Assembly: GCA_025054775.1 (NCBI GenBank)
Contig: JANWZA010000043.1
Location: 1 to 33,667 of the forward strand
From: Microscillaceae bacterium
Lineage (GTDB): Bacteria; Bacteroidota; Bacteroidia; Cytophagales; Microscillaceae
Direction of reading: 5' to 3'
Length of the DNA: 33,667 nucleotides
The notes under the pieces are model-generated. The model saw only the letters and a list, made by a program, of their open reading frames with translations, was not told the DNA's origin and did not search any database. Positions 142 through 19,814 of this stretch are shown here, one piece after another. Numbering within the stretch: position 1 is the stretch's first letter; each line of letters opens with the position of its first letter. A program made the position numbers and the translations under genes.

Positions 142-538
142 CAGATATATTGATACTTTTCAACACAAAGAACCATATATTTCAATAGTATAAGATGAAG
201 AAGGGATAGATCGTTTGAATTTTTGCGAAGGTGAAACATCGGTTTAGGAACTTTTATTAGCCCTAAAATCAAAAGATGAAAATAAATACCACTTAGATTA
301 GGTTGTATTATCTGCTAAATACAATTGATTTCACTTCATATGTAAAAGGTTCAAGCGTTCCCCATATTTTTACAAGAACCAAAATATTAGAGTTCCTATC
401 CCAGCTGAACAACAAAAAATTGCTTCCTGTTTTTCCTTATTAGAAGATTTAATTATCGCCCAAACCCAAAAAATAGAATTATTGCAACAACACAAAAAAG
501 GGTTATTACAGAGGTTATTTCCACAAATGAATGAATAA
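2..538 (+). pseudogene. hsdS: hsdS relic (type I restriction specificity subunit), 5' part off the window
   Basis: The frame starting at base 2 reads FPEFKDSEKWELMQINDIL, the usual entry into the second target-recognition domain of HsdS. It stops at a TAA at 191-193. Beyond that, family-like stretches (NFCEG, LLALKSKDENKYHLD) continue across further stops (tag at about 244) and frameshifts. The last ~45 codons are again good HsdS: PAEQQKIASCFSLLEDLII, then a coiled tail ending LLQRLFPQMNE with TAA at 536-538. HsdS normally gives DNA-sequence specificity to the HsdRMS complex. No hsdM or hsdR is in the window, and this copy cannot make a complete protein. It is homologous to the relic at the right end but carries different lesions, so the two decayed separately. 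Confidence 0.85.
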
Positions 539-745: not shown

Positions 746-1981
746 ATGCAAACAAACAAAAATACCCCTACAGCCATTACCCAAGAAGTTACTCAAAATA
801 CTGCTCAATTAAATTCTAAACCTGCTAAGAAGAAAAAAAGCGTTTTCCGTGAATGGCTTGATGCTATTATCTTTGCCGTTATTGCCGCTACGCTTATCCG
901 TTGGCTCTTTTTAGAAGCCTTTACTATACCTACTCCGTCTATGGAGAAATCACTTTTAGTAGGGGATTTCCTGTTTGTGAGCAAAGTCCATTATGGTGCG
1001 CGCACACCTAAAACTCTCCTGCAACTCCCCCTTACCCACCAAACCATTTGGTTCACCAAAATTCCCTCTTATTTGGAATGGATACAATTGCCTTACGGAA
1101 GGCTCACTTTTCCTCCTTTCGCTTGGACAACTATCAAAAATGGCGATGTAGTAGTGTTCAATTATCCCGTACCTGAACGGCAAGGCGAAACAGAAAAATT
1201 CAACTACTACCCTACCGACTTGAAAACAAACTACATTAAACGTTGTGTGGGTATTGCAGGGGATAGCCTAGAAATTAAAGACATGAAAGTATTTATCAAC
1301 GGTAAGCCTTTCAAAAATCACCCGCAAACCCAACAAGAGTATAAAATAGTAAGCACAACTAGTATTAACGAAAAAATTTTTAAGCGACTGGATATTACAG
1401 ACATAGTCCTAGCAAATCGCCAAGAAGATGATAAATTTTTTACCTATTACGCACACCTTACTCCTGAAAAAGCACAAGAACTCAAAAAAATGGAGTTCAT
1501 TAAAGAGGTTACCATAGACATGATGCCCAAAGGTATGCCTGACAGAACTACCTTCCCGAGCCGAGCCGCAGGGCTTTTTCCTGATGACGAGGTAGCAGAT
1601 TATACCCAAACCTTCTCTTGGAACAAAGATAACTTCGGTCCTTTACTTATCCCTAAAAAGGGGATGACCATAAAACTTACCAAAGAAAATGCAATTCTTT
1701 ATGAATACGTTATCAAAAAATACGAGGGCAACAAAAACGTAAAATTTGAGAACGGTAAAATTAGCATCAATGGAAAGGTATTAGATAAATACACCTTTAA
1801 GCAAAACTACTATTTTATGATGGGGGATAACCGCCACAACTCCCAGGACTCACGCTTTTGGGGCTTTGTTCCCGAAGACCACATAGTAGGTAAAGCCGCT
1901 TTTATTTGGCTCTCCTTGGATGCTAAGGAAAGCTGGCTGAAAAAAATCCGTTGGAATAGATTTTTCAAAGGGATAGAATAA
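746..1981 (+). CDS. lepB: Signal peptidase I
   Basis: Membrane-bound serine protease that removes signal peptides from exported proteins. 411 aa from the ATG at 746. An in-frame ATG at 671 lies upstream of the -7 box and cannot be used. A basic N-terminal stretch (residues 26-31) precedes one membrane helix (about 40-57). Box B, IPTPSMEKSLLVGD, puts the nucleophile at Ser65. The general base is Lys165 in NYIKRCVGIAGDSLEI. Near the C-terminus GDNRHNSQDSRFWGFVPEDH is the family box E. About 150 residues between the Lys box and box E are an insertion relative to the E. coli enzyme, as is common in Bacteroidota. murB follows after 13 bases, so the two are probably cotranscribed. Confidence 0.95.
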   Translation: MQTNKNTPTAITQEVTQNTAQLNSKPAKKKKSVFREWLDAIIFAVIAATLIRWLFLEAFTIPTPSMEKSLLVGDFLFVSKVHYGARTPKTLLQLPLTHQTIWFTKIPSYLEWIQLPYGRLTFPPFAWTTIKNGDVVVFNYPVPERQGETEKFNYYPTDLKTNYIKRCVGIAGDSLEIKDMKVFINGKPFKNHPQTQQEYKIVSTTSINEKIFKRLDITDIVLANRQEDDKFFTYYAHLTPEKAQELKKMEFIKEVTIDMMPKGMPDRTTFPSRAAGLFPDDEVADYTQTFSWNKDNFGPLLIPKKGMTIKLTKENAILYEYVIKKYEGNKNVKFENGKISINGKVLDKYTFKQNYYFMMGDNRHNSQDSRFWGFVPEDHIVGKAAFIWLSLDAKESWLKKIRWNRFFKGIE

Positions 1982-3005: not shown

Positions 3006-3082
3006 TGTTTATTAGCCTTTCGCTTTTTATTAGCTTAGGCTAAAAATTCATTTAGCTTTATTTATTAAATCCTGCTAAAAAT

Positions 3083-3114
3083 TTTGGAGTATAGCTTTTT
3101 TTTTTATAGCTTTG
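3083..3114 (+). promoter_or_regulatory. adk promoter, -33/-7 type
   Basis: TTTG 3083-3086, 20-base spacer, TAGCTTTG 3107-3114. A TTG codon at 3084 that would extend adk lies in the -33 element, so the ATG at 3165 is the start. Confidence 0.75.
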
Positions 3115-3164
3115 TTGGTATTAATTTACCTCAAATACTTACAAAAAAAACTATACCTTTAAGT

Positions 3165-3743
3165 ATGTTAAACCTACTCTTATTCGGACCTCCTGGTTCA
3201 GGAAAAGGCACACAAAGTCAAAAAATTATTGAAAAATATCAACTTTTTCACTTCTCTACGGGTGATGTTCTTCGTAGACACCGCAAAGAAGGAACAGAAT
3301 TAGGCAAACAAGCACAAGAATACATTACAGCAGGAAAACTAGTCCCTGACTCGCTAATTATAGATTTAGTAAAAACTACTTTGCGCGAGAATACTCAAGT
3401 AAAAGGTTATATTTTTGACGGTTTTCCGCGTACTGTAGCCCAAGCTCAAGCTTTGGATGAACTAATGAAAGAGCAGAACTCGGCTATCAGTGGTATGATT
3501 TCACTACTTGTTCCTGATGATGAGTTGAGAGCAAGGCTCAAAAAGCGAGCCATAGAAGAGAATCGTCCTGACGATCAAGATGAAAAGGTGATCAATACCC
3601 GTATAGAAACCTACAAGAACGAAACTTTGCCTGTAGCTGATTACTATAAAGCACAAGGCAAATTATATGAATTGAATGGTGTGGGAGATATTGAAGCAAT
3701 TTTTCAATCAATTTGTCAAGTTATTGACTCCATGCCACAATAG
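3165..3743 (+). CDS. adk: Adenylate kinase
   Basis: Cytoplasmic enzyme interconverting ATP + AMP and 2 ADP. 192 aa from the ATG at 3165; 27 codons upstream are open from a TTG but overlap the promoter and resemble nothing. The P-loop GPPGSGKGTQ is at residues 7-16, followed by the AMP-site region (HFSTGDVLRR) and GYIFDGFPRT. The lid region (LKKRAIEENRPDDQDEKV) is short and has no zinc cysteines, the short-lid form. It has its own promoter after murB and converges on the SGNH gene, 39 bases away. Confidence 0.95.
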   Translation: MLNLLLFGPPGSGKGTQSQKIIEKYQLFHFSTGDVLRRHRKEGTELGKQAQEYITAGKLVPDSLIIDLVKTTLRENTQVKGYIFDGFPRTVAQAQALDELMKEQNSAISGMISLLVPDDELRARLKKRAIEENRPDDQDEKVINTRIETYKNETLPVADYYKAQGKLYELNGVGDIEAIFQSICQVIDSMPQ

Positions 3744-17596: not shown

Positions 17597-18592
17597 TTAT
17601 TTTGCTCGTTTTTCTTCTTTTCTAATTTGCTTTTTTTGCTCTACTTCATTGTATTTTTCATAGGCTTGAATAATCTTTTTCACTAATCTGTGCCTTACTA
17701 CATCTTGCGTAGTGAGATTTACAAAGGCAATACCCTCTACTCCTTTGAGAATATTCATGGTTTCAATTAGCCCCGATTTTTGCCGCGCTGGTAAGTCTAT
17801 TTGTGAGGTGTCGCCTGTAATAATCATTTTAGAGTCAGTACCCATGCGCGTTAGAAACATTTTCATTTGCATAGGGGTGGTATTTTGGGCTTCGTCCAAT
17901 AAGATAAAGGCATTGGACAAAGTTCGGCCACGCATGTAAGCTAGAGGGGCAATTTCAATAATACGATTTTCTTGGTAAAATTTCAACTTTTCAGGTGTAA
18001 TCATTTCGTCAAGAGCATCGTAGATAGGGCGAAGGTAAGGATCTACTTTTTCTTTCATATCACCTGGTAGGAAGCCTAAATTTTCACCCGCTTCTACGGC
18101 AGGACGCGTAATAATAATTTTTTTTACTTGCTTATTCCGCAAAGCTCGCACTGCTAAGGCAACTGAAATGAAGGTTTTACCTGTTCCTGAGGGACCGAGA
18201 GCAAACACAATGTCATTATTTTCAGAAGCTTTTACAAGTTCCTGTTGGGTAGGAGTTTTGGCTTTAATGTTACTTCCATTTCTTGCACCATAGAGTAATA
18301 TATCTTGTCCAATTTCTTCGGCAACCGAGTCAATGGGTTTATCTGATTGCACGTAGAAACTTACTTGCTCTTGGGTAACCTTTCCAAATTTGTGGTAATG
18401 TTCTAATAAAGCATTGATAATTTCATTAATTTTTACAATCTCGGGGCTGGATCCCTGAATACGCAATTCACTTCCGCGTGAAATAATTTTGCTTTTAGGG
18501 AACGCTGCAGCCAGTTCTTTGATATTAGTGTTTTCTACACCTAAAAAATCTACTAAGGAAACGTCCTCTAATTGAATAATTTTTTCTATCAA
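17597..18592 (-). CDS. phoH: PhoH-like P-loop ATPase
   Basis: 331 aa, TTG start (18590-18592); the resulting N-terminus MIEKIIQLEDVSLVDFLGVE fits the family. The N-terminal ~65 residues form a KH-like domain (FPKSKIISRGSELRIQG). The ATPase core follows: Walker A GPSGTGKT (133-140), ITRPAVEAGENLGFLPGD (161-178), Walker B FILLDEAQNTTPMQM (229-243, DEAQ 233-236) and MIITGDTSQIDLP. The protein is cytoplasmic and related to E. coli YbeZ, which acts with the RNase YbeY in ribosome/RNA handling; ybeY is not next to it. A full promoter lies upstream at 18644-18675. Confidence 0.93.
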   Translation of the reverse strand: MIEKIIQLEDVSLVDFLGVENTNIKELAAAFPKSKIISRGSELRIQGSSPEIVKINEIINALLEHYHKFGKVTQEQVSFYVQSDKPIDSVAEEIGQDILLYGARNGSNIKAKTPTQQELVKASENNDIVFALGPSGTGKTFISVALAVRALRNKQVKKIIITRPAVEAGENLGFLPGDMKEKVDPYLRPIYDALDEMITPEKLKFYQENRIIEIAPLAYMRGRTLSNAFILLDEAQNTTPMQMKMFLTRMGTDSKMIITGDTSQIDLPARQKSGLIETMNILKGVEGIAFVNLTTQDVVRHRLVKKIIQAYEKYNEVEQKKQIRKEEKRAK

Positions 18593-18643
18593 ATGCAGTA
18601 AAAAAGGTTTAAGTGAAAAGATACGTTACCAACAAATTTGCCT

Positions 18644-18675
18644 CAAATATAATAAATTTTTATGAAAAAACCAAA
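18644..18675 (-). promoter_or_regulatory. phoH promoter, -33/-7 type
   Basis: On the minus strand TTTG (18672-18675), 20-base spacer, TATATTTG (18644-18651). Predicted transcription start about 45 bases before the TTG start codon. Confidence 0.75.
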
Positions 18676-18726
18676 AAAATAGAAGTTTTGTTGTTCTGTT
18701 TTAGAAAAAAATGTAACTATTTAGTA

Positions 18727-18734
18727 TATCTTTG
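18727..18734 (+). promoter_or_regulatory. -7 box heading the 18741-18960 intergenic transcript
   Basis: TATCTTTG on the plus strand matches TAnnTTTG. The upstream element is weak (GTTTTA at about 18699-18704, spacer about 22). No protein-coding gene follows, which points to an RNA gene. Confidence 0.5.
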
Positions 18735-18740
18735 GGTACA

Positions 18741-18960
18741 AAACAAACTCATATTTGCAATTATACCGAGTTAGGCTCCAAAAAATGCCTTAGGAATTGA
18801 AAAGGCAAACTCTTACGAGCTTGGTACGAAGCACCGAAACGTAAGTGAAGCTCTATCAAATTTGCTTTTTCACCTCCTTCGCTTATGGCTTAAGGGGCAG
18901 AAGGAACACCCAAAAGAACTGTATCAATCAATTTGCTATGGTATATCGTAGGGTAGGTTA
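18741..18960 (+). ncRNA. Candidate structured non-coding RNA (~185-220 nt)
   Basis: The region between phoH and the DUF4919 gene has no coding frame but follows a -7 box and folds well. A closing helix pairs 18762-18768 with 18939-18945. A 12-pair helix joins 18798-18809 to 18861-18872 (one G-U). Inside it 18812-18817 pairs with 18840-18845 and 18819-18822 with 18829-18832 around GGTACG. GAGCTT at 18817-18822 can pair instead with AAGCTC at 18848-18853, giving an alternative or pseudoknotted form. A second hairpin joins 18876-18880 to 18900-18904, with an inner 18882-18885/18891-18894. Size and long-hairpin shape recall 6S RNA, but no diagnostic motif was recognised. Both ends are approximate. 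The rest of the gap (18961-19112) shows only AT-rich sequence. Confidence 0.45.
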
Positions 18961-19112
18961 TTAATTATTCTAACTAATTATTTTGATTTTCAAGGATTTA
19001 ATTCTCTTGAAATAAAAAAATACCTGTTCTTTGGTTATAAGTGAACATAAAAAAATGTAAGGCTTTTATCCAAAAATCGACAGGGGTTTATCAAACGGGG
19101 TAGGTGTTGTAG

Positions 19113-19814
19113 CTATCGTTTAGGTAATCCAATCTTGTAAGGTAAGGTAACATTGAAATAAACAGGAAATTCACGCCTTCCATCTTCTGAACGGGCAATA
19201 TGTACATCGTAATAATTACCTTGATAACCATTAAAACTTTTACTTAATGATTTAAGATTGAAACGATATAGTACTGCCTCGGCATCTTTAGGGCTTATTA
19301 CATGCATTGCATTTTCATAACTTCTTCCCTCACCAGAGGTAAAAATAGCATCAAGGACGATTTGATAACGGCGAATATGCTTTTGTGTGTTGAGAGTATC
19401 TAGTCGCATGCTTGTAATTACCCCTTTGGCAACATTTCCAAACATAGAAAGCGGATTAAGATGTAGAAGAGAATCAGCTAACACTTCTGCCTTATAGAGC
19501 AGTTGCTTATCTATTAAACGATAGAGGCTATCTTCCAAAATCCTATGCCTGTAAGGGTTGTACTCGGGGCGTGCTGCAAAGCCATAATATAGAAACAGAA
19601 TTTCTTTTTTTGTCAGGCGAGCTGTATCGTTGTAATATTTTTGCAAGAGTTTAGGATAGTAGAAAGGGCTTTGAGGATCGTTCACTTCGTCAGCAATATC
19701 AGAGTAGGTATATCCTGCAACTTGGTAGCCTGCAATGGTTTGCCCACGTATTAGTAATGGTGATAAAAGTAAAAATGTTAAACAAGAAAAGTATTTGAAA
19801 AAATTTGGACACAT
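19113..19814 (-). CDS. Exported DUF4919 protein
   Basis: 233 aa. Signal peptide with hydrophobic core about 9-22, cleavage near IRGQ. The mature protein carries the DUF4919 pattern: DPQSPFYYPKLLQKYYNDTARLTKKEILFLYYGFA, NPYRHRILEDSLYRLI, a helical middle, then VLDAIFTSGEGRSYENAMHVISPKDAEAVL and the final FPVYFNVTLPYK. Known only as a Bacteroidota family of secreted or periplasmic proteins; no function assigned. It stands alone between glyA and the candidate RNA. Confidence 0.75.
   Translation of the reverse strand: MCPNFFKYFSCLTFLLLSPLLIRGQTIAGYQVAGYTYSDIADEVNDPQSPFYYPKLLQKYYNDTARLTKKEILFLYYGFAARPEYNPYRHRILEDSLYRLIDKQLLYKAEVLADSLLHLNPLSMFGNVAKGVITSMRLDTLNTQKHIRRYQIVLDAIFTSGEGRSYENAMHVISPKDAEAVLYRFNLKSLSKSFNGYQGNYYDVHIARSEDGRREFPVYFNVTLPYKIGLPKR

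Follow-up and report, generated by a model that had tools for sequence, protein, structure and literature searches.

A 520-base gap between phoH and a DUF4919 gene in a Microscillaceae genome contains what is, with a probability that we put at about three in four, the worn remnant of a dispersed repeat that is non-autonomous, folds as a single strand, and belongs to a new family. The window, that is, the whole 33,667-nucleotide stretch analysed here, had been read before from its letters alone, and the earlier note placed within 18741-18960 a probable structured RNA of this locus, perhaps 6S-like, preceded by a -7 promoter box and with a possible switch. Two parts of that account stand: the gap (18593-19112) has no coding frame, there being no ORF of at least 80 aa, and an unannotated element with a folding single strand does sit here, its relatives carrying compensatory changes. 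The conserved limits are 18786-18913 rather than those originally drawn, and the element is one of about 66 dispersed copies, none having been found at the phoH loci of eight relatives. Structure is thus really present in this stretch, although not as a free-standing gene for 6S or another RNA. The features to which we refer are as follows.

17597-18592, minus strand: phoH, neighbouring gene (PF02562, 316 bits)
18727-18734, plus strand: TATCTTTG, promoter-like, at a frequency equal to chance
18786-18913, plus strand: degenerate copy of the dispersed structured repeat of about 125 bases (99.8 bits with model R1, 64.0 bits with model R2; the copy belongs to alignment A1, the source of R1, and to the rows of A2, the source of R2)
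18787-18791, plus strand: 5' arm of the closing helix P1, here GCCTT, consensus GCGTT (by comparison with the consensus)
18798, paired with 18858, plus strand: position X of helix P2 and its partner, position Y; T-A in the window copy
18798-18809 with 18861-18872, plus strand: 12-pair central helix of the earlier note, drawable, not part of the family structure
18823-18835, plus strand: hairpin hp2, here GGTACGAAGCACC, consensus GGTGC-GAA-GCACC (alignment A2)
18905-18909, plus strand: 3' arm of P1, here AACAC, consensus AACGC (by comparison with the consensus)
19113-19814, minus strand: DUF4919 gene, neighbouring gene (PF16266, 90 bits)

The element beside phoH and its copies in the source genome

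A locus-specific 6S-like RNA gene with a switch is hardly credible. Its helices, namely, the 12-pair helix and the two overlapping 6-pair helices that were to form the switch or a pseudoknot, can be drawn, but relatives preserve them poorly. Among 28 sequences, these three helices are paired in 51%, 67%, and 53% of cells, compared with 94% for the family structure, and the covariation score of the 12-pair helix (0.130; shuffled, 0.099) is far under that of the family structure. The earlier note had named a lack of preservation in relatives as a refutation, and for these three helices this is largely what is seen, although the family does preserve a different structure. By folding alone, the stretch 18741-18960 is not clearly above chance (z = -1.23; 23 of 200 shuffled versions fold equally well or better), and the element proper (18786-18913), folded as RNA, gives z = -1.76 on the plus strand and -2.33 on the minus strand. 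The proposed promoter box, TATCTTTG, exists, but the pattern TAnnTTTG occurs only as often as expected by chance, with 82 occurrences on both strands of the window and two in the gap, where about 1.3 are expected.

The Rfam covariance search that the earlier note had recommended yielded no family at the gathering score in the window; 6S RNA (RF00013 and RF01685) had no match there at that score, nor one at E ≤5 in 18450-19150, a region with a single, chance-level Rfam match (Rhino_CRE, E 4.7). Across the element in the window and in 11 other scanned copies (L092, L104, L105, L106, L099, L107, L182, L184, L185, L187, and L191), no Rfam 15 family reached the gathering score; on the scanned copies elsewhere, the sole sub-threshold match was one to MAT2A_A (E 0.48), overlapping the L184 element. 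The other comparison proposed at the time, that of phoH loci, gave no element at E <0.4 in the eight loci of relatives searched (L332-L338 and the truncated L340, with L339 left out), and the DUF4919 match is absent from all nine phoH loci compared. No match was obtained with a tRNA/tmRNA search of the stretch, with an exact 21-mer against genome_contigs, with the element pattern against viral_contigs, with a Chryseobacterium copy against plasmids, or with a Hymenobacter copy against phages, and blastn of the stretch against phages produced no relatives. We recognised no description of the repeat family among the open-access papers found, a scope outside which lies a 2017 set of 224 candidate RNAs.

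Searching the source genome and 56 relatives with the stretch (blastn) yielded 13 places, all in the source genome. The covariance model R1, built from an alignment (A1) of these 13 first copies including that of the window, matched this 3.0-Mb genome at about 66 places, whereas the 14 other genomes of the same family, Microscillaceae, gave no match, a difference that argues for a mobile repeat. With the consensus as the query, blastn located 42 places in the source genome, and the more diverse model R2 found 54, three of them outside the 66. Among the 66 are copies at contig ends, for example, #19 and #53, that are possibly one place counted twice; at the ends of contigs C13, C57, C53, C50, and C43, several copies have identical flanks, the assembly is probably broken there by the repeat, and a few copies may have been counted twice.

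The repeat unit is a non-coding sequence of about 125 bases, with aligned copies spanning TGCGTTAGGGATTGAAAGGGC to GGAACGCCCAA. Its ends are sharp, with information content falling to about zero beyond some 15 bases upstream and 4 bases downstream, and the flanks of the copies are runs of A/T. Some flanks resemble one another, or resemble the inverted flank on the other side of another copy; this similarity counts against the preferred reading, and some copies may therefore belong to a longer unit. Among the 66 copies, 59 do not overlap any ORF of at least 90 aa, and the flanking genes are found in all orientations (-+ 17, ++ 15, -- 15, and +- 9, one side being unseen in 10), so that a riboswitch or leader does not fit. 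The sharp ends and the indifference to gene orientation are further arguments for mobility. With many intergenic copies that share common ends and a fold conserved on one strand, this is a dispersed structured intergenic repeat.

A second subfamily in the source genome has GATGCG / GCAG or GGCATGCG / GCACGCC in P2, with compensatory changes in the pair on contig C41. Its copies are at 216-392 (+) and 3058-3170 (-) of L327 (contig C41), an inverted pair that encloses small proteins, and at 257-407 (+) of L328 (contig C53).

The window copy ranks 27th of the 66 by R1 and is 72% identical to the source-genome consensus. Read from the sequence, two of the five pairs of its P1, a helix that covaries in the family, are broken, and 19 of 25 pairs overall are intact, compared with 17.9 expected under random placement of the substitutions (sd 1.8). 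In the source genome as a whole (hp3 excluded from these counts), intact pairs fall with age, from 96% in 21 young copies to 78% in 22 and 68% in 23 copies, and G>A and C>T changes account for 932 of the 1791 substitutions. This loss of pairs with age is also in line with a mobile repeat, whereas the pairs kept in excess of random placement in all three age groups (z 5.5, 2.7, and 3.0) count against it in the case of the old copies. Inherited compensatory alleles can yield such an excess, and the values of 2.7 and 3.0 leave room for selection that may act on old copies. Within this genome, P1 has no excess of compensation (200 of 270 vs 198.5 shuffled), and X-Y is a Watson-Crick pair in 42 of 54 rows. 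We conclude that the window copy is probably an inactive remnant, a dead copy of the family.

A covarying fold shared across the family

The family structure was derived from alignment A2, which consists of 28 rows hand-picked for diversity (the window, 5 others from the source genome, and 22 from elsewhere). The closing helix P1 reads GCGNN/NNCGC and encloses P2, GGG-A-U-X-G-N-A-A-GGG versus CCC-U-G-N-A-Y-A-G-CCC, in which X and Y form a true pair; a replaceable hairpin, hp1, with varying loops, which is missing from Mucilaginibacter; hp2, GUGC-GNA-GCAC; a GC-GAA-GC mini-hairpin; and another replaceable hairpin, hp3. In A2, 94.2% of the cells are paired (82.2% when shuffled), 14 of the 27 pairs have substitutions in both partners, and covariation scores 0.287, compared with 0.093 for shuffled alignments (sd 0.008) and at most 0.057 for slid ones. 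The pairs of hp2 are mostly invariant; the invariance of P2 and hp2 is partly by construction because the scan pattern used to collect copies prescribed letters in one arm or in both arms of these helices, leaving X, Y, and the tested P1 positions open.

At the open positions, X-Y is a Watson-Crick pair in 38 of 38 rows from other genomes, with three pair types, a result matched in 0 of 20,000 permutations, and in P1, 62 of the 76 cells at positions 5 and 6 are paired, compared with 36 shuffled. These tests used 38 of the 39 rows from outside the source genome (one row of genome G015 was left out), with the 3' anchors of 11 rows set by hand; of the 107 sequences entering the anchor alignment, 93 were kept, 12 from the source genome, including that of the window, and two others having no anchor, and L123 and L127 had been dropped from the 38 pattern loci as near-duplicates. 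In the RNAalifold consensus of the 13 first copies, the structure that R1 carries, the inner GGGC has the outer CCC as its partner; given the X-Y covariation, we replaced it with the nested P2. The covariation score and the X-Y pairing argue for the mobile-repeat reading.

Strand and chemistry are less sharply defined. The young copies L210 and L014, on either strand, fold far better than shuffled sequences, with z between -3.4 and -4.3 as RNA and between -3.0 and -5.6 as DNA, and the plus strand has the lower z in four of four copies as DNA, which is not so as RNA. Counts of G-T versus A-C mismatches, disregarding those of one P2 helix that had been indexed one base off, favour neither strand. 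A copy from a metagenome-assembled genome (MAG) labelled Competibacteraceae BA4 folds as RNA no better than shuffled sequences (z -1.42 and -1.50), and the former value is among the points against the preferred reading. The C-GNA-G motif is stable in RNA too. Many hairpins of the element end in this motif, and because GNA loops closed by two or more G-C pairs are described as extraordinarily stable DNA mini-hairpins (PMC4686876), a single-stranded DNA form appears to be slightly favoured over RNA.

Patchy distribution and candidate mobilising enzymes

Unremarkable in itself, the window copy leads to a repeat family found by R2 in 39 of 395 sampled Bacteroidota genomes, the source genome included, and in 22 of 171 genera (up to nine candidates scored per genome). 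Within the order, 13 of 390 genomes searched with blastn match, again counting the source (up to two candidates scored per genome). The distribution across Bacteroidota is patchy. Four copies are present in the genome G103, which belongs to another family; identity to the best counterpart in the source genome is 89-91% for each, and the two phoH genes are 69% identical as DNA; given that a non-coding element is 20 points more alike than this conserved gene, horizontal transfer is indicated. No copies were found in G017 and G036, congeners of G103. Another genome, G015, has 49 matches to a shorter relative of the element, many of them identical in the core. Both the close similarity to the copies in G103, with its element-free congeners, and the multiplication in G015 argue for mobility. 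Among the 19 G015 matches examined together with their flanks, the flanks are mostly shared, so that the unit there is longer.

In G015, the shorter relative lies inside a longer repeat whose left flank contains short internal tandem repeats (L068-L091), and at L057, two inverted elements (1301-1396, minus strand, and 1477-1563, plus strand) are about 80 bases apart in a REP-dimer-like arrangement.

The pattern scan of genome_contigs returned 38 stretches: 13 from Hymenobacter, four from the Bernardetiaceae MAG SKYG123, three from Mucilaginibacter, one each from Chryseobacterium tagetis, a Cyclobacteriaceae MAG, and a Saprospiraceae MAG, 14 from the MAG labelled Competibacteraceae BA4, and one from Prosthecobacter VE4. 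By eye, the ORFs beside the element copy in BA4 (L092 and other JACSSC contigs) are Bacteroidota-like and the VE4 contig (L114) is mixed, so we claim no spread beyond Bacteroidota; the labels or the binning of BA4 and VE4 appear doubtful on the same visual inspection. Aligned copies are 83-140 bases long, and most start with TGCG.

Eight plasmid records of Hymenobacter hold parts of the element, as would suit a mobile repeat, and the gene tables around the element in three of these records, themselves incomplete, list no transposase. At 11 of the 13 Hymenobacter pattern loci (L093, L096, L098, L102, L103, L104, L108, L111, L115, L118, and L123), an M15-like peptidase gene is present (PF13539 in the one tested); where it is closest, in six cases, it follows the element on the same strand at a distance of 44-264 bases. 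The surroundings are prophage-like, with recurrent small membrane proteins, a DUF3799 PDDEXK protein, and a SLOG protein. The context of an M15 peptidase and small membrane proteins was not seen in the six non-Hymenobacter loci examined, with L106 covered in part. An IS110-like gene near the copies of Hymenobacter aerophilus (L102 and L123) was considered and set aside, being in the opposite direction in L102 and seen in that species only.

That the repeat is of the REP type and owed its movement to a RAYT/Y1 transposase since lost from the source genome is in our view quite unlikely. Y1_Tnp is present in 10 of 15 other element-bearing genomes at E ≤0.001 (nine over the cut-off), a RAYT-like protein was found in 25 of 54 genomes searched, and in G234, an element lies downstream of one RAYT-like gene, at a distance of several hundred bases. 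Against this, Y1_Tnp is missing both from the source genome and from G103, G213, G390, G391, and G394; within the available flanks, the element lies near just 2 of 30 RAYT loci (E <0.01) and 1 of 17 Y1_Tnp loci (the matches in L167 and L297 being the same gene); and the element is far longer than REPs and has no GTAG or CGTC tag. With no such gene in the source genome and few RAYT loci near the element, Y1/RAYT transposases are not supported as the mobiliser. In G392, weak model matches beside a RAYT-like gene (L305:2256-2309, plus strand, and 3154-3243, minus strand) read ...ATCCCGACC... and may represent REPs of their own kind that belong to this gene.

Derivation as a MITE from a DDE insertion sequence that has terminal inverted repeats is a still weaker candidate, and we regard it as distinctly improbable. 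The element is dispersed, non-coding, and MITE-sized, P1 provides a short complementary end, some left and right flanks are similar when inverted, and inverted pairs of elements occur 2-3 kb apart in the source genome, all of which would suit such an origin. Yet there are no long inverted repeats beyond P1, whose five pairs are the only ends complementary throughout; by eye, no transposase was recognised among the genes between the inverted pairs; no parental insertion sequence appeared in the stretches read; and a MITE does not need the covarying internal structure. A non-autonomous repeat with a folding single strand remains our preferred reading, although the failure to find either an enzyme or an autonomous relative of the element in these searches counts against it.

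A constant site in Chryseobacterium, and known systems

In Chryseobacterium, the part of the query at the aldehyde dehydrogenase gene was matched by 86 of 98 genomes, and R2 detects the element in 81 of these 86 loci; one of the five others has a visible remnant (L290). In G695, the element starts 11 bases past the stop codon, antisense to the aldehyde dehydrogenase gene, and it is farther away in a few genomes (about 275 bases in G410). In an alignment of 52 of the 81 orthologues (A3), 96.2% of the cells are paired, and covariation reaches 0.233, compared with 0.108 for shuffled alignments and no more than 0.068 for slid ones, whereas the remainder of the gap is mostly unalignable between species. 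A constant position and orientation relative to a gene is thus seen at this one Chryseobacterium locus and is not seen in the source genome. The site looks as if it were selected, or else repeatedly converted from other copies. The same gap (L182:1101-2100) holds a second, different repeat at about L182:1765-1895, for which the corresponding part of the query (about 865-995) has further matches at other places in several Chryseobacterium genomes.

This retention with covariation exceeds what a pure parasite would need and so counts against the mobile-repeat reading. Together with the unalignable surroundings, it suits a functional structured RNA family across Bacteroidota, a 3'-UTR element or a small RNA whose multicopy state would be secondary; we consider this alternative unlikely. 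The orientation of the element to genes is not fixed in the source genome, its distribution is patchy, the mismatch types indicate no single strand, and even at the Chryseobacterium site, it is antisense to the neighbouring gene, while the sequence 5' of the element, in the copies examined by eye, differs between species and has no TAnnTTTG.

The behaviour of the element fits that of a putative non-autonomous mobile repeat. The folded single strand would be recognised by an enzyme acting in trans that moves or copies the element; most inserted copies would be ballast, wearing away chiefly by G>A and C>T; the window copy would be such a remnant, with no role at phoH needed; and occasionally a copy might be recruited, as at the Chryseobacterium aldehyde dehydrogenase gene. 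A broader proposition, to which we give somewhat less than even odds, is that these are a phylum-wide class of selfish elements that fold, combining an invariable core with hairpins that can be exchanged (many capped by C-GNA-G, which suggests folded single-stranded DNA), spread horizontally by an enzyme outside the known Y1/RAYT group and domesticated at least once, at that gene.

The family combines the kind of covariation usual for functional structured RNAs with the behaviour of a mobile repeat, and it raises the questions of which enzyme moves repeats that encode no transposase themselves, and whether a repeat kept at a fixed site, as in Chryseobacterium, acts as a regulator. It also calls for caution, in that an orphan structured RNA read from a single sequence can be a worn repeat, with the visible helices being accidents of decay.

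Several known systems invite comparison. The ERIC sequences of enterobacteria are imperfect palindromes of about 125 bases, non-coding, with many intergenic copies and a patchy distribution between species. Compared with ERIC by description alone, the present element is similar in its length of about 125 bases, intergenic multicopy state, lack of coding capacity, and patchiness, and differs in its host phylum and in its phylum-wide covarying multi-helix core with replaceable hairpins. The 6S-flavo RNA (RF01685) is described as a structured non-coding RNA of Bacteroidetes (PMC2864571), whereas the scanned copies of our element have no Rfam match. STAXI, as presented in the same source, consists of tandem pseudoknots with UUCG loops, which favoured RNA over single-stranded DNA (PMC2864571); in both cases, DNA and RNA are weighed by loop type in a structured motif, but ours occurs as single elements with many GNA loops. 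MITECca01 of Cardinium, also a dispersed non-coding repeat in a Bacteroidota genome, is about 240 bp long, with inverted repeats very similar to those of its parental IS982-family element (PMC9769881); by description, not sequence, it differs from our element, for which no parental insertion sequence was found in the stretches read. REPs are characterised as repeats of 20-40 bp with a GTAG or CGTC tag, the GTAG ones often located by RAYT genes (PMC3733652). They resemble the present element in being dispersed and palindromic, with folded single-stranded DNA as the presumed mobile form (PMC3733652, PMC3116915); unlike the REPs in the former account, the present element is 83-140 bases long, has another end sequence, and lies near RAYT loci in only 2 of 30 cases. 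The element family looks real and undescribed, and it would join the dispersed structured intergenic repeats, which as a kind are already known.
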